Below, in pieces: positions 10,478 to 45,955 of a stretch of DNA of 58,673 nt. The DNA is from a virus: positions 1 through 58,673 of IMG/VR virus record IMGVR_UViG_3300030329_002153; one strand, given 5' to 3'. The stretch's first letter is position 1. Each line of letters begins with the position of its first letter. The notes beneath the pieces were generated by a model, which ran no database searches, was not told the origin of the DNA, and saw only the letters and a program-made list of their open reading frames with translations. A program made the position numbers and the translations under genes.

Positions 10478-10499
10478 AGGCCGCCCCACCGGCTTCCAG

Positions 10500-10534
10500 C
10501 CTGCCATTTCTCCACGGGAATGGCAGGTTTTTTT
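10500..10534 (+). terminator. Rho-independent terminator of the virion operon
   Basis: Nine-base-pair stem CCTGCCATT/AATGGCAGG with a ten-base loop, followed directly by seven T. It closes the long plus-strand virion transcript before the regulatory genes. Confidence 0.9.
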
Positions 10535-10562: not shown

Positions 10563-10745
10563 ATGTCTTCAGAAGTAATGAACCAGATCCACACGGTCAA
10601 GGAAGTGGCGGGCATCCTAGGTGTAACGGACAGCTACATAAGAAGGCTGTGCCTTGAGAATAAGCTGGGCACCCGGAAGGGTAGAGACCGTTTGCTCACC
10701 AACGACGATATCCAGCAGCTTCGGAAAATACTTCCGAACGCCTAG
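10563..10745 (+). CDS. MerR/excisionase-like helix-turn-helix protein
   Basis: About 60 residues with a compact DNA-binding helix-turn-helix of the HTH_17/excisionase type: IHTVKEVAGILGVTDSYIRR, then a basic wing-like segment (GTRKGRDRLLTNDDI). A second ATG at 10578 (MNQIHTVK) is an equally possible start; neither has a strong ribosome site. It ends just upstream of the csrA promoter, which holds two identical ten-base palindromes, so it is a natural candidate for the regulator of that promoter. It could alternatively be an excisionase partner of the serine recombinase. The family call is fairly safe; the target is inference. Confidence 0.75.
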   Translation: MSSEVMNQIHTVKEVAGILGVTDSYIRRLCLENKLGTRKGRDRLLTNDDIQQLRKILPNA

Positions 10746-10755
10746 CTTTTTCTGC

Positions 10756-10784
10756 TTGACACCTTTCACGCATGCGTCTATAGT
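10756..10784 (+). promoter_or_regulatory. Near-consensus sigma70 promoter for csrA operon
   Basis: TTGACA, a 17-base spacer, then TATAGT. Transcription should begin near 10791, leaving a leader of about 34 bases before csrA. This is the best promoter in the window and probably drives the plus-strand early genes. Confidence 0.8.
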
Positions 10785-10809
10785 TGCGTCCCACACAGAA
10801 CGCATGCGT
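10768..10809. promoter_or_regulatory. Paired operator-like palindromes ACGCATGCGT
   Basis: Two exact copies of ACGCATGCGT, at 10768-10777 inside the promoter spacer and at 10800-10809 in the leader, centred 32 bp apart (about three helical turns, same face). The placement is typical of repressor operators. The second copy, just before the csrA ribosome site, could also act in RNA. Confidence 0.65.
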
Positions 10810-10824
10810 GAGAGGAGAGAATGG

Positions 10825-11007
10825 ATGCTGGTTCTTGCAAGGCGTGAAGAGGAGCGAGTTCGTATAGGCGACGGGATCTGGGTCACCGTGCTGGAGATCC
10901 GAGAGAACTGTGTGCGTCTGGGGTTCGACGCCCCTCCCGCCATCCCCGTCCTGAGAGAAGAGATCGTTGAGGAGGGCGACCATGCCGAAGCTGTACGAGT
11001 TGGCTGA
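10825..11007 (+). CDS. csrA: CsrA-family RNA-binding translational regulator
   Basis: Sixty residues, the normal CsrA length, beginning MLVLARREEERVRIGDG and continuing with the family's VTVLEI, VRLGFDAP and PVLREEI blocks. Leu4, Arg6/Arg7 and Arg44, important for binding GGA-containing RNA in known CsrA proteins, are present. Known CsrA dimers bind GGA motifs, usually in hairpin loops over ribosome sites, and change translation or RNA stability. The start is the ATG preceded by GAGGAGAG; upstream in-frame codons run into the promoter. That ribosome site and the start region (ATGGATG) each contain GGA, so autoregulation is possible. The end overlaps the Gp157 gene by 26 bases. Family assignment is strong; targets are unknown. 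Confidence 0.93.
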   Translation: MLVLARREEERVRIGDGIWVTVLEIRENCVRLGFDAPPAIPVLREEIVEEGDHAEAVRVG

Positions 11008-11479
11008 GGAGTTCGACGAGATATACCGGGAGATTTCTGAAGCTAATCCAGACGAGGACTTCTCGGACGACCTCAAGGAAAGGCTACGCAAGGCAGAGGG
11101 CAACTTCGAAGACAAGCTGATCTCTTGCGTGAAGGTACTGAAGACCCTCAACGCCGAGGCAGATGTGTGTCGCAGTGAGGCCGACCGGCTGACCAAACGC
11201 GCACGCTCGTTCGCACGCAACGCAGACTCCCTGAAGGAATACGTCAAGGAGTGCATGCTTTCTTCTGGAATGTTGCGTGTAAAGTCCTCGCTGTTCAACA
11301 TCTCAATTGCTGACAACCCACCGGCTGTGGATGTGTTCGACATTGACAACATCCCAGAGGAGTTTACGGTGGCTGTCCCAAGGAAGGTGTCCAAGGCTGA
11401 CATCAAGCTGGCTATTGAGCGGGGCGAGGAAGTTCCGGGGGCCACGCTGGTTCGTTCACAAGGTGTAAGGATCAGATAA
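10982..11479 (+). CDS. Gp157-family phage protein
   Basis: A 165-residue protein matching the 'Siphovirus Gp157' pattern: an N-terminal helical region with a charged coiled coil (AEADVCRSEADRLTKRARSF), then LKEYVKECMLSSGM, a beta segment LFNISIADNPPAVDV, then IPEEFTV, and a C-terminal KADIKLAIERGEEVPGA block. The family is common beside recombination genes in phages, and one member has been linked to phage resistance; no reaction is established. A GAGGAGGG site precedes the ATG, which lies inside csrA, so the two are translationally coupled. The next gene overlaps its stop (TAATG). Confidence 0.88.
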   Translation: MPKLYELAEEFDEIYREISEANPDEDFSDDLKERLRKAEGNFEDKLISCVKVLKTLNAEADVCRSEADRLTKRARSFARNADSLKEYVKECMLSSGMLRVKSSLFNISIADNPPAVDVFDIDNIPEEFTVAVPRKVSKADIKLAIERGEEVPGATLVRSQGVRIR

Positions 11480-12174
11480 TGGCGAAGAAGAAGCAGGCGA
11501 CAGAGCTTATCAAGGCAACATTGAAGAAGTATGACCTTGATCTGGAAACAGCATGCTGGGATTGCCACGGACAGTGGGTCATCCTTCACAAGGCATGCCA
11601 GATCATCGCCATCAAGGCGGGCATCGAGTGGCACCAACCTGAGATTATCCACAGTGATCCGGAAAAGAAGACAGTTGTCCTCTTAGTCCGTGGCTCGATG
11701 CCCGCCGATGACACAGTGAGGGAGGAGTGGTCCTTCGGAGAAGCCTCCCCTTACAACAATAAGAATAGCTACCCGTATGCCATGGCAGAAAAGAGAGGAA
11801 AAGATCGGGTCATCCTTTCATTGGCCGGTCTTCATGGGTATGTTTATTCCGACATTGAGGCCGACGACTTCAAGGAGTCTAAGCCTGTGGCAGAGCCTGA
11901 GCCTGCGGCAGAGGAGGAGTCGTCTCCAAAGAAGAGGGATTACGTCAAGGAGTTGAACACACAGCTTCAGCGTGCAGGGTGTACCAACCCAGAGGACGCC
12001 GGGATGGTATGCACTTGGATCTGGGAAGGGGTGTCCATCACCGTTGACGAGGCGCGTGGCAACTATGAAACAGCACGCACGACTGTCCGGATGTTGCAGG
12101 AAAAGATAAACAACGGGGTTCCGTTGAACAGAGTGTTGGATGAAGCGAGAAACTTTCACCAGAATAAAGGTTGA
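11479..12174 (+). CDS. Conserved phage recombination-region protein
   Basis: 231 residues. The conserved-looking core is EEWSFGEAS followed by NNKNSYPYAMAEKRGKDRVI and LHGYVYSDIEADDF, a block I have seen in phage proteins encoded next to single-strand annealing or recombination genes. An acidic Glu/Pro linker (about residues 137-153) leads to a C-terminal helical domain. I cannot assign a reaction; a role with ssDNA or recombination intermediates is inferred from its neighbours (Gp157, SSB elsewhere, RusA downstream). Translationally coupled to the Gp157 gene by a one-base overlap. Confidence 0.7.
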   Translation: MAKKKQATELIKATLKKYDLDLETACWDCHGQWVILHKACQIIAIKAGIEWHQPEIIHSDPEKKTVVLLVRGSMPADDTVREEWSFGEASPYNNKNSYPYAMAEKRGKDRVILSLAGLHGYVYSDIEADDFKESKPVAEPEPAAEEESSPKKRDYVKELNTQLQRAGCTNPEDAGMVCTWIWEGVSITVDEARGNYETARTTVRMLQEKINNGVPLNRVLDEARNFHQNKG

Positions 12175-12179
12175 ATCTG

Positions 12180-12479
12180 ATGGGTAAGTGGAGCGACGAC
12201 AGGCGACAGGCACACTCCGAGGCGATGCGCAAGGCGTGGATCACCAGAAGGAGGAACCGCCAGACCACCAAGACAAAGGCCCAAACGACGACTCGGGCCA
12301 TGAACAGGATTGAAGCGGCGTCGACATTCGTCCGCACTTGCGGAGGGATTGAGACTGCGAAGAAAGTTCTGCGTGCTTTTGAGCAGCTTGGCGGGACCGC
12401 CGGGGCGCGAAAGAGTATCGCTCTTGTTGACACACTGAATAGCAAGGACGGCACCACGAATGGAAATCACTCAGGTTGA
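12180..12479 (+). CDS. Small basic protein of unknown function
   Basis: 99 residues from the ATG; a TTG nine bases earlier is also in frame. The N-terminal 40 residues are very basic with SDDRRQAHSEAMRKAW, a pattern resembling short NUMOD-like nucleic-acid-binding helices. The rest is Ala/Thr-rich and helical (ETAKKVLRAFEQLG). The end overlaps the ParB-like gene by 20 bases. DNA or RNA binding is likely from charge; nothing more specific is supported. Confidence 0.65.
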   Translation: MGKWSDDRRQAHSEAMRKAWITRRRNRQTTKTKAQTTTRAMNRIEAASTFVRTCGGIETAKKVLRAFEQLGGTAGARKSIALVDTLNSKDGTTNGNHSG

Positions 12480-13353
12480 TCCGCACTCACTGAAGAACCA
12501 CCCGACAAACATTGAAATCTATGGTGACGTTGCCGACGACGACTTTGTTGACTCGTGCCGCAACGGAATCCTTGAGCCAATCATAGCCACCTCCGACGAT
12601 GTCATCGTCAGTGGTCACCGCCGGGTTCAGGCCAGCCGTATTCTTCAACACAAGGCTGTCCCTGTTCTTTACCGGGAAGACCTTGTCGACCCTCTGGATA
12701 TTGAGGAGGCTCTCCTGCTTGCAAACAAGCAGCGAGAGAAGACGAACGAGCAGAAGACTCGTGAGTACCGGCGACTCCTCGACATCGAGAAGCAGCGTGC
12801 TGCCATCAGGCAGAAGTCTGGAACCCCCGCCCCAGAGGGGGACAAAGGTCGGGCGGATGAACGGGCGGCAGCTTCGGCTGGTATGAACGTCAAGACTGCA
12901 CGCAAGGCATCCAAGGTTATGGATGTCATTGAAGCAGCGGAAGAGAGTGGTGACTCAGACGCAGCCAAGAAGCTATCCGACACCCTGAACAAGAATGTTG
13001 CCAAGGCGCACCGGGAAGCCACAAAGAAAGACACTCCGAAGCCAGACGGGGTGGGCATCCCCGCTTCCTTGGACCCAACATTCGATTCGTTACCTGTGTT
13101 CCAGTCACTGGTTACCAAGGTTGGCAACCTCAAGTCTGAGATTGCAAACCTGTCTGACTGCGAGGGCGGGGAGAGGATCCACCTCCCAGAGGTGGACATC
13201 TACCTGAACGACGTGGCATCGCACCTGAAGGCTGCACGACCGCACACCGTCTGCCCCTACTGTGGTGGCAATGGATGTGCTGAGTGTGACGAGCTTGGCT
13301 GGGTACACCAGAACAGGTACGACGGGTTCCCGAAGGAGATCAAGGGTGCGTGA
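12460..13353 (+). CDS. ParB/Srx-fold protein with C-terminal zinc motif
   Basis: 297 residues. The N-terminal ~90 residues have the ParB-like nuclease/NTP-binding layout: HPTNIEIYG, ILEPIIAT, then the hallmark VSGHRRVQASRIL (about residues 50-62) and VPVLYRED. Residues about 85-190 are helical with a putative HTH-like SAGMNVKTARKASKV. Near residues 263-274 is CPYCGGNGCAEC, a DnaJ-type zinc-binding motif. Known relatives include partition proteins, DNA nucleases and phage transcription or replication factors. There is no visible ParA partner or parS array, so plasmid-style partition is unlikely. A role in DNA replication or regulation is inferred. Confidence 0.82.
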   Translation: MEITQVDPHSLKNHPTNIEIYGDVADDDFVDSCRNGILEPIIATSDDVIVSGHRRVQASRILQHKAVPVLYREDLVDPLDIEEALLLANKQREKTNEQKTREYRRLLDIEKQRAAIRQKSGTPAPEGDKGRADERAAASAGMNVKTARKASKVMDVIEAAEESGDSDAAKKLSDTLNKNVAKAHREATKKDTPKPDGVGIPASLDPTFDSLPVFQSLVTKVGNLKSEIANLSDCEGGERIHLPEVDIYLNDVASHLKAARPHTVCPYCGGNGCAECDELGWVHQNRYDGFPKEIKGA

Positions 13354-13587: not shown

Positions 13588-15285
13588 GTGGCTGCAACAC
13601 TGCGGGACTATCAGTTGCAGGCCAAGCAGGACTCGATGTCGAGGTTCTCGAATGGGGTTCGAAGCGGCCTGATCGTTATGCCAACAGGAACAGGGAAGAC
13701 AGAGACCTTCCTTTCCATTGCACACAACTGGCCACAAGGACACGTCCTTGTTCTGGCTCACAGAGAGGAGTTGATCTGGCAACCGTGGCGACGGTGGAAG
13801 AAGAACACCGGAGAGTACGGCGACATCGAGATGGCTGAGTACCGCCGACCAAGGCTCAGTCTTTCCAACATAACATTCGCCTCAAAGGACACGCTGTACC
13901 GGGACCGCAGGTTGAGGGGTGCGTTCCCTGACCCGAAGAAGGTGGGGCTTATCATCATAGATGAGGCCCACCATGCCGTCCGGTCGAACAAGACTTACCA
14001 GAAGATACTGGATTACTTCGACCACCCAGACCTGTGTGTGCTGGGGGTGACTGCCACCCCTGACCGGGCAGACGAGAAGGCTCTCGGTCAAACATTCGAC
14101 GAGGTGCTATTCGATTACCCGCTACTGGATCCCAACGGTGGACCCAGTGCCATCAGTGATGGGTGGTTGTGCCCCATCCGGCAGCAGTATGTCACCGTCG
14201 AGGAGCTAAACTTCGACAGCATCTCCTGCCGGGGTGGTGACTTCGTGGACGCTGCCCTTGAGAGAGAGTTGGTGCGAGAACGGATTCTCCACCGGCTCAC
14301 CTCCCCCACCATACAGATGTCTGATGGGCAGACACTTGTCTTCTCGGCTGGGGTGAAGCAGGCCAGTCGGATGACGGAGATATTCAACCGGTACAAGCCA
14401 GCCAGTTCTTACTGTCTGGTCAGCCGGGTTGACAAGGACGACAAGCACGACGCAGTCATCCTGTCTCACGACAAGCAGGACAGACGCCGGATGCTGGACA
14501 ACTTCAGCAAGGGGGCGTTTCAGTTTGCAGTGAATGTTGGATGCTTGACCGAGGGGTTCGACTCACCTGCCGTTCGCACCCTGTCCATGGGAAGGATGAC
14601 AAGGAGCCGCAGCCTGTACGCACAGATGGCAGGGCGTGGCACAAGAGTCCTTCCCAATGTTATTGAGGGTGATGGCTGGAGGTTCGACACACCAGACGAG
14701 AGGAAGGCGGCTATCAAAGATAGTGATAAGCCCTACGTCACGATATTAGATTTCGTGGGGAACTCTCGGCACTCGCTTGTGTCTGCTGCTGACATACTGG
14801 GTGGCAGTTACGACGATGACGTTGTCGACAGGGCCAAGAGCAACGCCAAGTCTAAGGATGAGCGGGACGAAGTGGATGTGGCCGAGGAACTTCGCAAGGC
14901 AGCGGAGGAGGTTCGGGTCGAGAAGGAGAAGCGAGCAAGGATACGGGCGACCGCCAAGGTGAAGACTCGTACTGTCGATGTCTTCGGTGCCATCGGTGTT
15001 GTCTCCACACGGGAGCCGGGCTGGCACAAGGGAAGGCAGCCAACCACCAAGCAGCGTCAGGCACTGGAGAAGTTCAAGGTCGAGCCGCACGTCGTGGAGT
15101 CGATGTCTTTTCATCAGGCCAGCCAAGCACTGGACTCCCTCATCGACAGGTCTCGTCGTGGCCTTGCCACCTATAAGCAGTGCAAGCTGTTGAAGAAACA
15201 TAATGTTGGAACCAAAGACCTGACATTCAAGAAGGCGTCGTACCTCATCGGTCGTCTGGCTCGCAACAACTGGAGGCACCTGTGA
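13588..15285 (+). CDS. Superfamily 2 DEAH-box helicase
   Basis: 565 residues from the GTG with an AAGGGG site. Motifs in order: Q-like LRDYQ, Walker A PTGTGKT (about 33-38), IDEAHH (about 124), VTATP, a C-terminal RecA domain with VGCLTEGFDSPAV, and motif VI QMAGRGTR (about 345). A charged coiled segment (KSKDERDEVDVAEELRKAAEEV) precedes a C-terminal module with KQRQALEKF and ATYKQCKLLKKHNV, a helical tail found on other phage helicases. Such enzymes unwind DNA branches during replication or recombination. It is the only clear helicase here and is followed with a four-base overlap by a small DnaB-N-like protein. Confidence 0.92.
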   Translation: MAATLRDYQLQAKQDSMSRFSNGVRSGLIVMPTGTGKTETFLSIAHNWPQGHVLVLAHREELIWQPWRRWKKNTGEYGDIEMAEYRRPRLSLSNITFASKDTLYRDRRLRGAFPDPKKVGLIIIDEAHHAVRSNKTYQKILDYFDHPDLCVLGVTATPDRADEKALGQTFDEVLFDYPLLDPNGGPSAISDGWLCPIRQQYVTVEELNFDSISCRGGDFVDAALERELVRERILHRLTSPTIQMSDGQTLVFSAGVKQASRMTEIFNRYKPASSYCLVSRVDKDDKHDAVILSHDKQDRRRMLDNFSKGAFQFAVNVGCLTEGFDSPAVRTLSMGRMTRSRSLYAQMAGRGTRVLPNVIEGDGWRFDTPDERKAAIKDSDKPYVTILDFVGNSRHSLVSAADILGGSYDDDVVDRAKSNAKSKDERDEVDVAEELRKAAEEVRVEKEKRARIRATAKVKTRTVDVFGAIGVVSTREPGWHKGRQPTTKQRQALEKFKVEPHVVESMSFHQASQALDSLIDRSRRGLATYKQCKLLKKHNVGTKDLTFKKASYLIGRLARNNWRHL

Positions 15286-15848: not shown

Positions 15849-15995
15849 ATGGAAAAAGACTGGGAGCAAGAAGCAAAAGAGATTATCGAGCCGTACTCGG
15901 ATGGGGTCGGGGAGGCTGTGATCCACCCAGAGATTCAGGAAAGAATCGAGAGATGCCTAAGAAATTGCCAGCAAGGGAAGAGTTCACAATCGTAA
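15849..15995 (+). CDS. Small acidic protein upstream of RusA
   Basis: 48 residues (MEKDWEQEAKEIIEPYSDG...), mostly acidic helix, with a G-rich ribosome site GGGGGTAGGGG. It overlaps the RusA gene start by 43 bases in another frame, a common phage arrangement. Function unknown. Support is the ribosome site, good codon structure and the gap it fills. Confidence 0.5.
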   Translation: MEKDWEQEAKEIIEPYSDGVGEAVIHPEIQERIERCLRNCQQGKSSQS

Positions 15996-16354
15996 TGACT
16001 CTTCCGGACAAGAGTTTGTCACCAAACTCTCGGAGTCACTGGGCTGTGAAGTCTCGACACAAGGCTGCCCACCGAAACGAGGCAGCGGTACTGACACGTC
16101 AGGCTCTGGTGGATGTGGGTCTAGGAGTGGACTGGTCCACCGTCTTGGTCAAGCCCTACTTCTTCTACCCCACGAAGAGGAAGAGGGACAGGGACAACTG
16201 TTCTGCAATGTTGAAGGCAGCAAGGGACGGCATAGCCGATGCACTCCGAGAGTGGGGCATCATCGAGGATGACGACTGCTTCATCCCGATGCCGTCGTCC
16301 ATCTCGGTGGATCGCGAACGTCCTCGTGTGGAGATTGTTATCTCCAACCAGTAA
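15953..16354 (+). CDS. rusA: RusA-family Holliday junction resolvase
   Basis: 133 residues with the RusA signature: SPNSRSHWAVKSRHKAA near the N-terminus, then KRKRDRDNCSAMLKAARDGI and GIIEDDDCF. The D-x-D-N and E/D-D-D acidic residues coordinate the metal that cuts four-way junctions in known RusA dimers. In this phage it would resolve recombination intermediates or trim branched DNA before packaging. It is the last plus-strand gene before the reversed repressor. Confidence 0.92.
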   Translation: MPKKLPAREEFTIVMTLPDKSLSPNSRSHWAVKSRHKAAHRNEAAVLTRQALVDVGLGVDWSTVLVKPYFFYPTKRKRDRDNCSAMLKAARDGIADALREWGIIEDDDCFIPMPSSISVDRERPRVEIVISNQ

Positions 16355-19981: not shown

Positions 19982-20276
19982 GCTTGTTCCTTTCTGGATC
20001 TAATATTGCAATCAACTCGTATATCCCGTTGAAGGATACATGAGTGTGATCGGTTTCGTATTCACTGGCTTGATGTACCCACAGCCCTTCCGCTACCCCA
20101 TCTCTTGGGGTGAACCATTCGATTACAACATTGCCAGTGCCATCAGCACACAGTTCGACACTTGCTCCCATCGGTCTCGACCTGTCCTTCGGTGGACCTT
20201 GGCATAGCCTGACCTCATAGTCTTCGATCAGGTTACACAACTCCACCAGACTTAACCCGCTCCCTGAGTTTGTCAT
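19881..20276 (-). CDS. Unknown protein with long 3' overlap
   Basis: 131 residues from the ATG at 20276, inside the end of the recombinase gene. Residues about 1-95 look like a real domain (SLVELCNLIEDYEVRLC, then strand-rich ASVELCADGTGNVVIEWF and HTHVSFNGIYELIAIL). The last 35 residues are Gly/Glu/Arg-rich low complexity and overlap the next gene by 101 bases, consistent with a stop-free but non-functional tail or a frameshift. No family recognised. Confidence 0.55.
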   Translation of the reverse strand: MTNSGSGLSLVELCNLIEDYEVRLCQGPPKDRSRPMGASVELCADGTGNVVIEWFTPRDGVAEGLWVHQASEYETDHTHVSFNGIYELIAILDPERNKHDQRRTEEGDGGEDGQGHRGGSEVSGEAPDASG

Positions 20277-21012
20277 CTTTCTTCCATGCCTTGTATGCTC
20301 GGGCACAGCGTTGGTCCTTCCATGGACGAGACCACCGTACCCTTCGCTTGGTAATCTTCCCTTCAGTAACGAACTTGTCTTCGACAGCGTCACTGATTTC
20401 CACCCACGTCTTGCCATGCTTGTCTCTCATATCGACAATCCACAGCATCATCTTCACCATTTCCACATCAGGTATCAGGTTCTTGTCCTTGCCACTGCCG
20501 TGAGTCCAGCCGAGTGGAGCATTGCAAGAATACTTCTTCCCTGATTTCTTCAGGACATCCAGCGCAGCCTTGGTCCTCTCTGACTTGACCCGTGATTCCC
20601 ACCGTGCCATCGCCGCCATGATGGTCACGAACAACTCACCGTTTGGTGACTTCACATCAACATTGATGTCAAGGAAGTGGGCGTTGATTCCTCGCTTCTC
20701 CCATAGGGACCATGTGTTGAGGAAGTCTCTCGTGTCCCTGAAGCCACGGTCTAGCCTGACGAACAGGACGTGGTCGCCCGGCTCAAGTGCGGTGTTCAGT
20801 GCCGCACCTTCTGGCCTCTGGAGCAGAGGCTTCTTGAATGCCGACACCCCTTCTTCCCTGAAGAATCCACCACGTTCGAGATCCTCATAGTCAATCTTGG
20901 TTCTGATGTATTCGAAGTACCGGTCGAGAGTCTTAGCCTGTCCCGATAAGGACAGACCAGACTCTGCCTGTTCTTCCGACGACACCCTGATGTAGCCGTA
21001 GGCTTTAGGCAC
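20233..21012 (-). CDS. Serine recombinase (resolvase/invertase type)
   Basis: 259 residues from a GTG with AGGGGAG upstream. The catalytic domain shows GYIRVSSEEQ with the nucleophilic serine, LSGQAKTLDRYF, VLFVRLDRGFRDTRDF (active-site Arg/Asp cluster), NGELFVTIMAAMARWES and the ERTKAALD hinge helix. A short C-terminal region starting with the PLGW-type segment resembles the beginning of the large-serine-recombinase domain but stops after about 90 residues. It is smaller than typical serine integrases (450 or more residues). It could integrate, invert or resolve DNA; no att site was recognised nearby. Confidence 0.9.
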   Translation of the reverse strand: MPKAYGYIRVSSEEQAESGLSLSGQAKTLDRYFEYIRTKIDYEDLERGGFFREEGVSAFKKPLLQRPEGAALNTALEPGDHVLFVRLDRGFRDTRDFLNTWSLWEKRGINAHFLDINVDVKSPNGELFVTIMAAMARWESRVKSERTKAALDVLKKSGKKYSCNAPLGWTHGSGKDKNLIPDVEMVKMMLWIVDMRDKHGKTWVEISDAVEDKFVTEGKITKRRVRWSRPWKDQRCARAYKAWKKDDKLRERVKSGGVV

Positions 21013-28250: not shown

Positions 28251-28286
28251 CGTCGCTGTCCTCCGGTTCGGTGTTGTTGTGTCCCC

Positions 28287-28327
28287 CCTCACCTCAAGGG
28301 GTCGTAAGACTCCCCCTTGAGGTGAGG
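28287..28327 (-). repeat. Hairpin with conserved 11-base loop, copy 2
   Basis: Perfect 15-bp stem (CCTCACCTCAAGGGG and complement) closing loop TCGTAAGACTC, located between promoter and the 28250 gene. Same loop as at 27021-27053. Confidence 0.75.
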
Positions 28328-28401
28328 TGGGCCACCACATCCAATTCTCTGGCTGTCTCCCCCCGGTCTCATGGTCCATGAGACTGATGCGAGGGGGCAG
28401 G

Positions 28402-29673: not shown

Positions 29674-29742
29674 AGCAAAGCTCCTTCGGCACAAGGCCAG
29701 TTGGTGAAGCCGACTCGGATCGAATCGGCAAAAATCCTCATT

Positions 29743-29834
29743 TCTCTCTTCTTCTCTCTTTTTTCTTTCCCTTTTAAATGACGAGGAGCGAAGCGACGAG
29801 GAAGAGGGAAAGAAAAAAGAGAGAAGAAGAGAGA
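29743..29834. repeat. Long perfect inverted repeat (29-bp arms)
   Basis: Arms are all-pyrimidine and all-purine and exactly complementary; four more pairs (one G-T) extend into the loop. The loop, read on the plus strand, contains GAGGAGCGAAGCGACGAGG. It would form a very stable cruciform or RNA hairpin. Confidence 0.95.
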
Positions 29835-29836
29835 TA

Positions 29837-29868
29837 TAGAACCCTCCCCACTAGTGGGGAGGGTTCTA
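29837..29868. repeat. Perfect 32-bp palindrome
   Basis: TAGAACCCTCCCCACT and its exact complement, centred on ACTAGT with no spacer, only three bases after the long inverted repeat. Such loop-less palindromes are unstable in most bacteria and imply function or recent origin. Confidence 0.95.
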
Positions 29869-30522
29869 CACCCACTCCCCTTTAGGGGAGTGAGGGCAAA
29901 TCCTCCAACCCCGCGCAAGGACTCCGTCCGGTGGGCGGTTGGCAAGGCGGGCAGGTCAGGACTTGGCGTGTACCCAAGCACGCGCGACCCAAGAATCACC
30001 GGATTTTCTCTCATAGATTACAAAGTAATCTAAAAAATCGACAATGTTGGGAAAATAGTTGCCGAAGGGGGGTCGCGTACGCAGCGCGAAGTCCGGCGGG
30101 CGCGCGTACATGTACATGTACATGTACACATGTAGGCGTAGGCGAGAGCCGCAGCAGCGAGGCAGCGAGACCATCGACCAATCTTTGAACTTGCTAGCAA
30201 GTTCACATTCACTCAGCTTGCTGAGTGGGGAGGCGAGGTCAAGCCAAAGTTCTGGTAGCAAGCTACCAGCCAGCAGGAGAAACCGGCGTCTCCTAACGGG
30301 AGACGAACCCCAGACAATGCTTACCGTTCGGTAAGCATTGTTGCAAACCCGTGCCATACAACCACTTGTGGTTGTCTGGCACCCCCGGCCCGGCCCCCTT
30401 CGGCGGCCCCTATAGGTATATCTAACGCTCGTGGAATTTTTCACCAAAACCAATACACGCATGAGAACGCTACCTACAGCGTCTGGCGTATTTTTTTGAG
30501 CAAATACCCCGTGTACCACGAG

Positions 30523-33289: not shown

Positions 33290-35779
33290 GTGGCTAATCC
33301 CTATCGTGATATCGTTACTGGTGATTACCACACCCCGAGGTATGTCACGCGAGGTGAGGGGCAGCCGCAATTTTCCAAGGTGGCTGACCGGGAAGCGTTC
33401 CGTTACGACAGGACGCGAGACGCAATTCACGGTGTCGACTTTTCTGGTGTGGCGAGGGATATGGGTCTGGGGAGCGAGCAGGCCGCCAAAGACTGGTTCC
33501 AAAGTCTGGGGGTCCAGCAGCGTCAGAAAGTCAGGGAATCGTGGCCTCTTTTCAAAACGGAAAAGTATGGCCTCATGCCGTTCCAGATTGTTGATAAGGA
33601 GGACTTGAGAGATCCGGGCAGGAGGACGGACAGGGGCGGTGACCCAACTCTGTATGAAATGTTTCGTGGAGAACTGGTTGACCCTGTCCTCGACATGCTC
33701 AACATCAACGAGAAGGAAAGGCACACAGATCCATTCCATGGCGGCGAACCAAGGCCGACGATGTTTCGCGCCGCAGACAAGTTGAACAGAGACTTGGGCC
33801 AGATGCTTGGCACAGAGAAAGGCACAGCCACGGGTGGGCTGGGGACTCTGGCCGAAGACTACGAAGAGAATGTTGCAAAGCCGTTTCGTAGAGACTTGCC
33901 CGGAACTTACGTTCCGATGTATGCGCAGGGTCTCGGGATCTGGAGTCCAGAAGAGGCGTCTGCCTATAGGGACAGGGTGACCAACAGGCCGAACCTCGCT
34001 GAGTCGATTGGCTACGACCCGCTGAACCTGTTCGAGGTTGGTGCCCTGACGAAGCTGGTTCAGGGCGGGCGGATGGCTAGAGGCGCAGGGTCTCTGGAGG
34101 ATATCGCCAAGTTCCGAAACCTCCACACCCCTGCAAGGGATACTCTGTTCAACCGAATGACTGGAGAGTTCGATCCCGGCAGGAGGCAGGCCATGGGCGG
34201 GATGGCTGCTGGTGCTGCCGCTCTTGCCGGTCTGAAGGGCGCGACGATGGCTGGACCCGAGGCAGCCAAGGTGGCTTCCACGGTGGCGCATGTCTCCGGT
34301 GTTGATCCGACCGGACCCAGTGTAGTTCTGGAGGGTCTTCTGAAGCACGGCTCTGATAAAGGTCGAGCCGTACTCTTGGACTCGATAGGTGATGCTGCTC
34401 GCCAGTCTGGCAAGGGCGGTGATCCTATTGAGTGGGTTCACAGACCCAACCTAGACAAGGCAAACAGAAGACGACAAGGACAGCAGACAACGCGATACGA
34501 GTCCTTGGGAGACCTTCTCAAGGCGGAGAAAAGAAAAGTAACGTCGGGGGATCTGAAACACCTAGACCACACAGATAAAGATGTGCAGCATGCCGTCGCG
34601 CAAGAATGGGGAAAAAAATACCCCCACCTTGCCAAAAAGTTCAACGAGGGAACACTCGATATTGGCAGGTACGCCGAAGAGCAGGAAAACTTGAGCAAGT
34701 TCTGGAATAAACTGTACAAATACCATGCTCGTGGTCGAGGTGCCGCAAAGGGGCTGAGTTTCACCGAGTATGCAAACTTGCCTCGCACTAGAAAGAGAAT
34801 TGCCAAAGTAGAAGAAGCAAACAAATATTACCTACAACACACCCCAGAAGGGTCCATGGATGAAATGATGAAGTCTGGACGAGCCGAGGGGGCATCAGAT
34901 GTCTATGGCGATGACCCACTCTCTTACCATGCCCAAAGTGCAGGCATGGACGAAGACGTGCGAGATATTATGTGGGAGATGGACCCAGACGAAATAGAAC
35001 CGGGATCGCACTGGTTCGGTGCCGACGAGGCCATGGACGATCTAAAGAGCGACATGATGTACGCCATGGATGACACCGAAATTTGGGGCGACAAGTCCAA
35101 ATACCTAGGCTCCTTGGCTCACGAGGGGAAACGTCAATACATACCAGAGGTTGAGCAGGGGTTGCGGCAGGCACTTGGCGTGGAAACCCCTGCCGGGCAG
35201 CATGCGGCCCAGACTCTTGACGATTTCCTTTTGCACTCAATTCACGAAATGGAGAGATCGAAAGCCGCATCGCATCCGTGGCCAATAACAAGAACTGATA
35301 AGCACGGACTGCATGAGTTATACGGAGACGAGGCGATAAGGTATCTCCAGAAGCAGAGGATGGCTGTCAAAAAGAACGGAATATTCGCTGCTGATGAAGG
35401 TGTGCTACACGAGTGGGCCGATAACGACTTTGTTGGGTATATGGATGCCAAGTGGGTTAGCGCAAGTTCGCCCGGACCAAACAGAACAATCGGAACTATT
35501 CCAGACAGGGAGAGGTACTTACAGGAACTCACAGACCACGGAAGGCCGAGATCCGACGCAGGAACGAGATATTCTGAGTCTGGCCAGCAACCGTTCAGGC
35601 TTCCGTTCGACAAGACCCTGTCGGTGGGTCCGTCGCAAGCACCCAAGAGGCGGGTCAGTTTGCAGGAGTCCCTCAAGAGGGCCGGGGCACCACCATCAGA
35701 GGTGGAGGCCGCAGGTGGAGCATTCGATGCGGTCGATCCGCCCCTTATCAAAATGTTGAAAAGGCATAGAAGGAAATGA
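33290..35779 (+). CDS. Large putative internal/ejected virion protein
   Basis: 829 residues from a GTG with AAGGGG. First gene of the virion module. The N-terminal ~240 residues are hydrophilic; around residue 241 is YDPLNLFEVGALTKLV, resembling motifs in the 1471- and 501-residue proteins. Residues about 300-325 are Ala/Gly-rich and weakly hydrophobic. Residues about 385-780 are charged and aromatic-rich and use more A-ending, AGA and ACA codons than the flanks, as if a module had been inserted. I recognise no catalytic motif. Role as a DNA-associated or ejected protein is inferred. Confidence 0.75.
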   Translation: MANPYRDIVTGDYHTPRYVTRGEGQPQFSKVADREAFRYDRTRDAIHGVDFSGVARDMGLGSEQAAKDWFQSLGVQQRQKVRESWPLFKTEKYGLMPFQIVDKEDLRDPGRRTDRGGDPTLYEMFRGELVDPVLDMLNINEKERHTDPFHGGEPRPTMFRAADKLNRDLGQMLGTEKGTATGGLGTLAEDYEENVAKPFRRDLPGTYVPMYAQGLGIWSPEEASAYRDRVTNRPNLAESIGYDPLNLFEVGALTKLVQGGRMARGAGSLEDIAKFRNLHTPARDTLFNRMTGEFDPGRRQAMGGMAAGAAALAGLKGATMAGPEAAKVASTVAHVSGVDPTGPSVVLEGLLKHGSDKGRAVLLDSIGDAARQSGKGGDPIEWVHRPNLDKANRRRQGQQTTRYESLGDLLKAEKRKVTSGDLKHLDHTDKDVQHAVAQEWGKKYPHLAKKFNEGTLDIGRYAEEQENLSKFWNKLYKYHARGRGAAKGLSFTEYANLPRTRKRIAKVEEANKYYLQHTPEGSMDEMMKSGRAEGASDVYGDDPLSYHAQSAGMDEDVRDIMWEMDPDEIEPGSHWFGADEAMDDLKSDMMYAMDDTEIWGDKSKYLGSLAHEGKRQYIPEVEQGLRQALGVETPAGQHAAQTLDDFLLHSIHEMERSKAASHPWPITRTDKHGLHELYGDEAIRYLQKQRMAVKKNGIFAADEGVLHEWADNDFVGYMDAKWVSASSPGPNRTIGTIPDRERYLQELTDHGRPRSDAGTRYSESGQQPFRLPFDKTLSVGPSQAPKRRVSLQESLKRAGAPPSEVEAAGGAFDAVDPPLIKMLKRHRRK

Positions 35780-43180: not shown

Positions 43181-45955
43181 ATGCCACCCTTTGAGAACCA
43201 GCCGACTCCGACAAGCCCAGACGACGGGACATTGCGCCCCATCGTTACTGGGTGGCTGTCCAAGATTGACTTGGCCATTCAACACAAAAAGCCATTCTCG
43301 GACATTTCAGAGCAGTGCATGGCGTTCTTCTCTGGGGCCACCGGCTTCATGTGGGAGCCAAAGTTCAAGAAGAAGTATTTGAACACCAACACGACTCCCC
43401 GTTTTCGCATGACAATGGCGAAGGCATTTGAACTCGTGGCGTTGTTCGGCCCACTTCTTTACTGGAGGAACCCACAGAGGACCGTGAAGCCACGGGTTCA
43501 GATTGACATTTCTCCTGAGCTTTTCGGCCCGCCGAATATGCAGGAGATTATGCAGCAGTGGCAGCAGTTGCAGCAGCAAATGCAGCAGTTGCAGCAGCAG
43601 TCCCAGCAGTTGCAGCAACAGATGCAGCAGCCTCAGCAGCAGCAGCAGCCTCAGAACGGGCAACCTGTACAGCAGCAAGACCCAGCCGCTATGCAGCAGC
43701 AGCAGCAGCAGCAGCAGCAGGCGCAGCAGGTTCAGCAGCAAATGCAGCAGTTGCAACAGCAGATGCAGCAGTTGCATCCGCAAGTTCAGCAGGTTCAGCA
43801 AGCGCAGCAAGTTTATCAGCAGGCTGTTGTCGAGCAGAGGACACGGAAGTCTCAGGATGGTGCTAGGTGCAACCTTGTTGAGAAGTGGCTGAACTACACC
43901 CCCAACGAGCAGCCCGGTGGAGGCTTGGCTAGGCATGCAGAGCTTGCCATCACCGAGGCTCTCGTCAAGGGGCGTGGCGTTCTTTGGACAGAGCCGTATG
44001 AGTTTCCCGGTTCAGATATCCGTTTGACTGGAAACTTCTACGACACGGTAGACAACTTGCTGATTGACCCTGACGCAGAGAGTCTGGATGACGCTCGCTG
44101 GATTGCCAAGCGGGTTGTTCAGCCGGTCTGGCAGGTGGAAAAAGAATATGGATTGAAAAAGGGAACTCTTGAGCGTTCTGGCAACATGGAAAGTGCCAAC
44201 TCTCAAGGTGAAACCAAGGGCGACGACATGGGCAACTTCAAGCGTGCCCAAGGAAAGTCGTTTGACCTGATGGTTCATTGGAAGATTTGGAGCCGTGGTG
44301 GTGTTGGCTCCCGGCTGACTGGGGTTTCGACCCCACTCAAGGATGCTTTTGACGACACGGTTGGTGATTTCGCCTACCTGTGTGTTGCTTCAAGTGTTCC
44401 GTTCCCCTTGAATGCTCCTCCTGAGAAGTTCAAGAAGGCTTCTGACAAAGAAGTCAAAGAAATGTTCGCTTGGCCGGTGCCTTATTGGAAGGACAATAGG
44501 TGGCCCTGTGTTCTTCTGGACTTCTATCCGAAGCCTAGGTCTGTCTGGCCAATCGCCCCGCTTGCTCCGGGCCTTGGCGAACTAGTGTTTATGAACGTCA
44601 TCATATCCCACTTGGCGAACCGCATTTGGTCGTCGAGCAGGGACTTTATCGCTGTGCTGAAGTCTGCGGAGGAAGAGGTCCGCAAGCAGATCAAGAACGG
44701 AGAGGATCTGGCACTCATATCCTTGAACGAAGTACACAGGGATATTCGTCAGGTCGTCCAGTTCTTGCAGCAGCCCCAGACAAACTTCGACGCTTGGAGA
44801 ATTCTTGAGCAGATCACCCATGTGTTTGAGCGTCGTACCGGGCTGACAGAACTCATGGCTGGCCTGACCACCACTCAGTCTCGATCTGCTGAAGACATTG
44901 CTACCAAAAAAGAGCAGATGAACATTCGTCCGGACCACATGTCCTCAAAGGTCGAGAAGTGGATGGCCGAGTGTGCGAAGATGGAAAAGTTCTGTTGTCG
45001 CTGGTTCATTGAGTCCAAGGATGTCGAGCCTCTGGTTGGAAAAACTGGTGGCTACCTGTGGCAGCAGCTAATTACCAGCCAAGACCCAGAGGTGGTTGTC
45101 AGGGAGATGGACGCCACAGTGGAGGCGGGGTCCGCACGGAAACCGAACAAGGCCAGAGACACACAGAACATTCAGCAGGCGATGCAGATCCTCTTCCCAG
45201 AGCTTTCCAAGCATGCGGATGTCACCACCGACACCGCTCCGCTCAACAAGTTCCTGTCGCTGTGGGCCGACACAGTGGAACTGGACATCGACGGAATGCT
45301 CACTGATAACCGGCTGCCAATGCAGTTTCAGCCATGGTTCCAGCAGCAGCAGCAACAGCAAATGCAGCAGCAGCAGCAGGCCCAGATGCAGGCCCAGCAG
45401 CAGCAGCAACAAATGCAGCAGCAGCAAATGCAGATGGAACAGCAGAAAATGCAGATGGACATGCAGACTGGGCAGCAGAAGATGCAGGTCGATCAGCAGA
45501 AGATGCAGATGGACATGTTCGCTGGCCAGCAGAAAATGCAGGGCGAGGCTATCAAACAGCAGGCTATGCAGCAGAAAGCCCAGCTTGAGCTTGTCAAGCA
45601 GCAGCAGGAGATGGAGGCTGACGCAGCCCGCATGCAGCAAGAGATTCAAGCTCAGGGTCTTGAGGCCGTCTTGGCTCAACGTCAGGGGCAAATGGATATG
45701 GCCAAGGCTCAGCTTGACATCGCTGCAAAGCAGATGGACATTCAGGCCAAGAGAGATCAGGGCCAGAGTGAGCAGGCGAGCAAGGTTAGCGAGATGGTCC
45801 TTGGTCGTGCGATGTCTGCCGAGGAGAACAGGCGAGCGGAAGAGACGCACATTGCCGACATGTTCCGCGACGAGCAAAAGCACCAGCAGGGGATTCGCCA
45901 CGAGCAAGACAAGGCGCAGCAACAGGCAAACAAAGCAAGAAGGAGTCCGGAATAA
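43181..45955 (+). CDS. Portal protein with glutamine-rich insertions
   Basis: 924 residues, far longer than most portals. The portal core is recognisable from conserved-looking blocks: ISEQCMAFFSGATGFMWEPK at the N-terminus, VDNLLIDPDAESLDDARWIA, WGxV-like QPVWQVEKEYG, and FERRTGLTELMAGLTTTQSR. Two low-complexity segments are added: residues about 123-215, almost pure Gln with Met/Pro, and a Gln/Met-rich C-terminal coiled coil (about 718-900). The dodecameric portal is the DNA entry/exit channel and binds TerL and the tail. The polyGln parts are encoded mostly by CAG runs and may be disordered. Confidence 0.88.
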   Translation: MPPFENQPTPTSPDDGTLRPIVTGWLSKIDLAIQHKKPFSDISEQCMAFFSGATGFMWEPKFKKKYLNTNTTPRFRMTMAKAFELVALFGPLLYWRNPQRTVKPRVQIDISPELFGPPNMQEIMQQWQQLQQQMQQLQQQSQQLQQQMQQPQQQQQPQNGQPVQQQDPAAMQQQQQQQQQAQQVQQQMQQLQQQMQQLHPQVQQVQQAQQVYQQAVVEQRTRKSQDGARCNLVEKWLNYTPNEQPGGGLARHAELAITEALVKGRGVLWTEPYEFPGSDIRLTGNFYDTVDNLLIDPDAESLDDARWIAKRVVQPVWQVEKEYGLKKGTLERSGNMESANSQGETKGDDMGNFKRAQGKSFDLMVHWKIWSRGGVGSRLTGVSTPLKDAFDDTVGDFAYLCVASSVPFPLNAPPEKFKKASDKEVKEMFAWPVPYWKDNRWPCVLLDFYPKPRSVWPIAPLAPGLGELVFMNVIISHLANRIWSSSRDFIAVLKSAEEEVRKQIKNGEDLALISLNEVHRDIRQVVQFLQQPQTNFDAWRILEQITHVFERRTGLTELMAGLTTTQSRSAEDIATKKEQMNIRPDHMSSKVEKWMAECAKMEKFCCRWFIESKDVEPLVGKTGGYLWQQLITSQDPEVVVREMDATVEAGSARKPNKARDTQNIQQAMQILFPELSKHADVTTDTAPLNKFLSLWADTVELDIDGMLTDNRLPMQFQPWFQQQQQQQMQQQQQAQMQAQQQQQQMQQQQMQMEQQKMQMDMQTGQQKMQVDQQKMQMDMFAGQQKMQGEAIKQQAMQQKAQLELVKQQQEMEADAARMQQEIQAQGLEAVLAQRQGQMDMAKAQLDIAAKQMDIQAKRDQGQSEQASKVSEMVLGRAMSAEENRRAEETHIADMFRDEQKHQQGIRHEQDKAQQQANKARRSPE

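Follow-up and report, generated by a model that had tools for sequence, protein, structure and literature searches.

CsrA homologues have been described in phages before. In 2020, csrA was reported in 30 out of 2,517 phages (PMC7366521), and in 2021 GenBank and IMG/VR were reported to include phage RsmA homologues, for which a counter-CRISPR role was proposed in Serratia (PMC8450108). More recently, knock-down of PTXU04_00028, the csrA homologue of phage PTXU04, was found to shrink plaques (CRISPRi-ART, 2025, PMC11879866), so that a phage CsrA can matter for growth. In E. coli, CsrA inhibits translation of its own mRNA, with a GGA located over the Shine-Dalgarno sequence, and one CsrA dimer is reported to bridge sites 10–63 nt apart (PMC7652899). 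A different type of control is found in phage T4, in which the Shine-Dalgarno sequences of I-TevI, soc and e are buried in RNA from upstream promoters, while that of I-TevI is free in RNA from a promoter inside the hairpin (PMC2988022).

The complete 58,673-base IMG/VR record analysed here (the window) encodes a single CsrA (protein MLVLARREEERVRIGDGIWVTVLEIRENCVRLGFDAPPAIPVLREEIVEEGDHAEAVRVG; Table 1). The original prediction concerned positions 10756–11007, i.e. the stretch that opens with the -35 box and closes with the csrA stop codon, and rightly remarked that csrA is known in some phages. Phage csrA as such has already been published, and the window adds a new member of this known kind, with an unusual control region. 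At least 274 csrA places were counted in IMG/VR by a single pattern, and 86 csrA loci were compared (mostly from IMG/VR, with five deposited phage records, two cellular MAGs and the window). Like the known phage CsrA/RsmA homologues (phrog_9500; Pseudomonas phage phi297, Vibrio crassostreae phages, Providencia phage PSTCR8lys), the window protein is a short CsrA with L4 and R44, encoded together with other small phage genes in a cluster, and an ANGGA motif is found at the gene start, as in most of these homologues. In contrast, its identity to aligned CsrA sequences, these homologues included, is 34–50%, the portal and terminase of the phage have no match among 50,697 INPHARED phage records, and a strong private promoter together with an inverted repeat over the Shine-Dalgarno sequence distinguishes the window from the 85 other loci. 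The csrA gene of PTXU04 has a tested role, albeit in another phage. The INPHARED entry for Acinetobacter "phage" MD-2021a (CAKLQH020000034.1) was dropped as phage evidence, as its csrA lies among the housekeeping genes alaS and thrA and the record is probably bacterial chromosome.

Table 1. Features of the csrA control region and the surrounding genes in the window
Feature	Coordinates	Strand	Evidence or remark
Terminator-like hairpin closing the upstream late/structural operon	10498..10529	+	14-pair stem, then T run
Small helix-turn-helix protein (HTH_17, MerR/excisionase-like), candidate regulator	10563..10745	+	PF12728 E 2.4e-6, 28.2 bits (cut-off 27)
Sigma70-type promoter TTGACA-17-TATAGT	10756..10784	+	11/12 consensus match
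Inverted repeat, left arm CCTTTCACGCATGCGT	10762..10777	+	Mostly promoter spacer; perfect palindrome 10768-10777
Inverted repeat, right arm ACGCATGCGTGAGAGG	10800..10815	+	Leader; perfect palindrome 10800-10809; most of csrA Shine-Dalgarno
Shine-Dalgarno GAGGAG, GGA at 10814-10816	10812..10817	+	Sequence
AATGGATG: GGA 10823-10825 with A two bases ahead (ANGGA), overlapping csrA start codon	10820..10827	+	Sequence
csrA	10825..11007	+	CsrA-family, 60 aa
Siphovirus Gp157 / Mu Gam-like end protection gene	10982..11479	+	PF05565 E 7.1e-41; phrog_253 E 4.9e-41
Operon gene, single-strand-annealing-like by position only	11479..12174	+	Counterparts in G030, G387, G389
ParB-like partition protein/nuclease	12460..13353	+	phrog_12047 E 1.4e-14
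DNA helicase	13636..15285	+	phrog_16 E 4e-60
RusA-like Holliday junction resolvase	15953..16354	+	phrog_34 E 5.4e-15

The prediction of a full-length CsrA with Leu4, Arg6/7 and Arg44 is borne out. The protein matches Pfam PF02599 (E 9.7e-20, 70.7 bits against a cut-off of 27, residues 1–50 of 60) and phrog_9500, "CsrA-like regulator" (E 1.6e-16), and it retains L4, R6, R7 and R44, with changes near the contact sites (A5 for T, L43 for H). L4 (strand 1) and R44 (strand 5) are RNA-contact residues of CsrA, the fold of which is an interlocked dimer of five-stranded chains; these two residues, as well as G33 and P37, are invariant in 27 aligned sequences, including five relatives. A monomer model (pLDDT 76.7, pTM 0.55) resolves three strands and a short helix, and its best PDB fold matches are all CsrA, RsmA or RsmE chains (TM ~0.6, best E 8.7e-5). 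Family membership is assigned by sequence, and the gene product is expected to bind RNA. The start codon is at 10825, 7 nt past AGGAG; an ATG at 10821 is out of frame. Phylogeny, which the original prediction had also called for, settles less: the binding residues are kept, but the end branch of the window CsrA is long (0.88, against a median of 0.16) and the tree (54 columns) is mostly without resolution, leaving its placement unsettled, and we therefore claim no origin for the gene. Matches in the Gemmataceae-MAG and Gemmatimonadetes-MAG phyla reach at most ~50% identity. The phage encodes no FliW antagonist, and no decoy RNA of the CsrB/RsmZ type was identified in it by Rfam match; the host may supply either.

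Single-sequence searches of IMG/VR with the window CsrA, and with the 772-aa protein at 33461, gave no relatives. The portal protein did identify relatives in IMG/VR (34–65% identity), and csrA is present in six of the nine that measure at least 46 kb (G030, G036, G387, G389, G394 and G407) and absent from G397, G403 and G410. As G030 and G387 are nearly identical at the locus, the csrA-bearing relatives count as five independent cases. Their CsrA proteins share 34–37% identity with that of the window. An HTH-type gene (HTH_17 or HTH_31) lies directly or one gene before csrA in five of the six, and in G036 and G407, as in the window, it is of HTH_17 type and directly precedes csrA. The genes after csrA encode annealing-like, Gp157-like, ParB-like, helicase and RusA proteins in varying sets; the neighbourhood in G394 is different. 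In G410, the HTH_17-like gene is immediately followed by the 124-aa gene found after csrA in G036 and G407, so that this relative has a csrA-less version of the same locus. Hence csrA is kept in the lineage at a fixed place, but is dispensable. Among the relatives of the Gp157 and helicase proteins, csrA was found in none of the 27 records searched, most of which are fragments.

Some substitutions in these relatives affect positions 6 and 7 of CsrA (V6 in G030, G387 and G389, S7 in G036, T7 in G407), and RNA binding may therefore be drifting in the lineage. Such changes, together with the long branch of the window CsrA and the lack of csrA in G410 between genes that flank it elsewhere, are what one would expect of a decaying passenger gene that no longer binds RNA. 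We consider this very improbable, however, since the frame is open, L4 and R44 are kept in all members, the gene has a strong promoter and its own Shine-Dalgarno sequence, and it has been retained in six of nine long relatives, with 34–37% identity at the protein level.

The long window portal protein (43181–45955) has a glutamine-rich C-terminal tail and more than 100 relatives in IMG/VR, which, given the lack of an INPHARED match, indicates an unsampled phage group. A search for a host with the portal profile gave weak, partial matches only (343 genomes of the Gemmataceae-MAG phylum and 200 of the Gemmatimonadetes-MAG phylum), and no host is therefore claimed. The window also encodes a serine recombinase (20233–21012, minus strand; PF00239, E 1.2e-25), and similar-looking small recombinases are found upstream of the HTH_17-type gene in G036, G407 and G410, hinting that the lineage may be temperate.

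The near-consensus sigma70 promoter claimed for csrA is the only site in the window with at least 11/12 matches (spacing 16–18, both strands), and no such site occurred in 10 first-order random copies of the window. Within 130 nt upstream of csrA, a promoter of at least 10/12 was found only in the window among the 86 loci compared. The HTH_17 gene lies directly upstream of this promoter, and transcription would start at about 10790–10793, as judged from the promoter position. Downstream, csrA is, as had been proposed, the first gene of an operon, one of DNA metabolism; the designation of this operon as early is our reading of its gene content (Gp157/Gam-like, ParB-like, helicase and RusA). The csrA 3' end and the Gp157/Gam-like gene overlap by 26 nt. 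No PHROG match and only a sub-threshold Pfam match were found for the product of the subsequent gene.

Overlooked in the original prediction was a near-perfect 16-nt inverted repeat that extends across the promoter spacer, the -10 box, the +1 position and the Shine-Dalgarno sequence. The arms are complementary at 15 of 16 positions, with 22 nt between them, and each contains ACGCATGCGT, a perfect 10-bp palindrome. The two copies are 32 bp apart (about three helical turns), and no further copies exist in the window, even when one mismatch is allowed. Inverted repeats of this quality were absent from 20 random copies of the window, and a few others occur in the window itself, mostly at about 28–30 kb. 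Among the 86 csrA loci, such a repeat over the Shine-Dalgarno sequence is present only in the window, which, in combination with the promoter, substantiates the earlier remark that the context is distinctive. It was looked for in the relatives and not found, and hence cannot be checked by conservation.

Several other repeats were observed in the window. The non-coding stretch 29740–30400 is crowded with strong, unrelated hairpins, including those with arms of 36 nt at 29740/29802 (94%), of 16 nt at 29837/29853 (a perfect pair), of 13 nt at 30314/30329 (100%) and of 15 nt at 30351/30368. It may serve as a replication origin or be rich in RNA. Three overlapping exact copies of the palindrome GTACATGTAC are found in tandem at 30106–30127, more than shuffles give, and an inverted repeat CCCCTCACCTCAAGGGG...CCCCTTGAGGTGAGG lies at 28283–28330 near a block of minus-strand genes.

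The pair of ACGCATGCGT palindromes around the -10 region is probably an operator for a phage repressor, for which the adjacent HTH_17 protein or a lysogeny repressor would be candidates. There is little short of an even chance that the repeat is nothing but such a DNA operator, with two repressor-dimer sites around the -10 box, and that the RNA hairpin is a functionless by-product. The arm cores are perfect 10-bp palindromes at the spacing given above, as expected for dimer binding, and they are the only two in the window. On the other hand, the pairing of the arms extends 6 nt past the palindrome cores (CCTTTC/GAGAGG, 5/6; chance 0.005 for one named direction) and ends on the csrA Shine-Dalgarno sequence.

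RNA folding predictions point to a second role of the repeat. The segment 10756–10830 is predicted to fold with -28.4 kcal/mol (z -3.55). In read-through RNA, the predicted mean unpaired probability of 10811–10817 is 0.19–0.26, and each of the positions 10808–10815 is unpaired at no more than 0.02. In RNA from 10790–10793 to 10870 the corresponding mean is 0.92–0.95, and in promoter-started RNA folded to 11007 it is 0.72; folding of the promoter-started leader is no better than that of shuffles. The Shine-Dalgarno sequence is thus predicted to be buried in read-through RNA and free in promoter-started RNA. This layout is shared with T4 I-TevI, as far as sequence and folding can tell, in that the promoter-started transcript does not include the left arm. 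The T4 hairpin delays I-TevI translation until late, whereas the window hairpin would block late read-through, since the upstream unit is a structural operon. Moreover, unlike those of I-TevI, the arms in the window are also palindromic, suggesting an operator as well.

The original prediction inferred autoregulation from two GGA motifs at the ribosome-binding site and start. Both named sequences do occur (GAGGAGAG and ATGGATG), and their GGAs lie at 10814 and 10823, but "two GGAs means autoregulation" was rejected as stated: at least two GGAs occur near the start of 14 of the 52 genes of this phage (27%), and the count shows no enrichment at viral csrA starts when Shine-Dalgarno strength is equal. 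With a spacing of 9 nt, the two motifs are also too close for the bridging reported for one dimer (10–63 nt); a third GGA at 10851 falls inside this range from either of them.

ANGGA is the CsrA recognition core, and in the window it sits over the start codon and not over the Shine-Dalgarno sequence. As 10 of the 52 genes (19%) have an ANGGA at their start, this is weak evidence by itself. A broader comparison of the region from -25 to +10 in non-redundant viral csrA genes and their neighbours lends the claim of autoregulation other support, as an ANGGA is present at 51 of 63 csrA starts (81%) against 115 of 435 neighbours (26%; p 9e-17). This comparison uses predicted start positions for the neighbours, its csrA genes are related by descent, and some of the loci, though few, could be bacterial. 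The excess persists when both sets are required to have GGA in the Shine-Dalgarno zone (49/57, 86%, vs 101/236, 43%; p 2e-9) or a strong Shine-Dalgarno sequence (21/24 vs 37/88; p 6e-5). When the data are split at 50% GC, it is retained in the lower part and borderline in the upper one. All seven members of the lineage, the window included, have an ANGGA at the csrA start. CsrA may therefore exert some repression on its own message, as the motif data suggest, and as the Gp157 gene starts inside csrA, such repression could also tune Gp157. To our knowledge, on a search of the literature on phage csrA, this excess has not been reported earlier.

The same enrichment, and the start of the next gene inside csrA, would suit a CsrA that acts mainly on phage messages, for example on its own operon and in a stage switch, rather than on the host. 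We think this rather unlikely; the gene starts of this phage are not enriched in ANGGA overall (10 of 52, against 26% of the genes around other viral csrA genes). Still somewhat less likely, in our estimation, is a role in counter-defence, by repression of host CRISPR-Cas or other defence messages. It is argued by analogy, from the proposal made for phage RsmA homologues in Serratia (PMC8450108) and the smaller plaques seen when the csrA homologue of a different phage was knocked down (PMC11879866).

We propose, with moderate confidence, that the locus encodes an operator-controlled, translation-insulated, early phage CsrA. The CsrA-family dimer would bind GGA-containing RNA and would be made first from the DNA-metabolism operon, whose transcription the best promoter of the phage would drive. 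Early in infection, it probably changes how host messages are translated or how stable they are, and may partly repress its own. A repressor bound at the two ACGCATGCGT sites flanking the -10 region probably controls the promoter. Transcripts from upstream are predicted to fold the Shine-Dalgarno sequence into a long stem and to yield no CsrA, while csrA would be translated from promoter-started transcripts, which lack the left arm; production of CsrA would hence be confined to periods in which the csrA promoter is active. The hairpin would in this way prevent unscheduled CsrA from structural-operon read-through. The most likely outcome would be a burst of CsrA as the DNA-metabolism programme begins, shut by the repressor and by CsrA's own binding. 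More tentatively, and in our judgement doubtful as a complete scheme, a single DNA element might control csrA twice, as promoter operator and as RNA hairpin on read-through messages, giving stage-limited CsrA, with binding of CsrA to the freed Shine-Dalgarno sequence closing a feedback loop.

Although csrA genes are common in phages, hardly any has been tested, and the ANGGA excess at their starts gives a quantitative indication that phage CsrA proteins bind the messages from which they are made. In the lineage of the window, csrA stays beside DNA-metabolism genes while the protein diverges, and the member that lacks csrA between the same neighbours provides a natural comparison.
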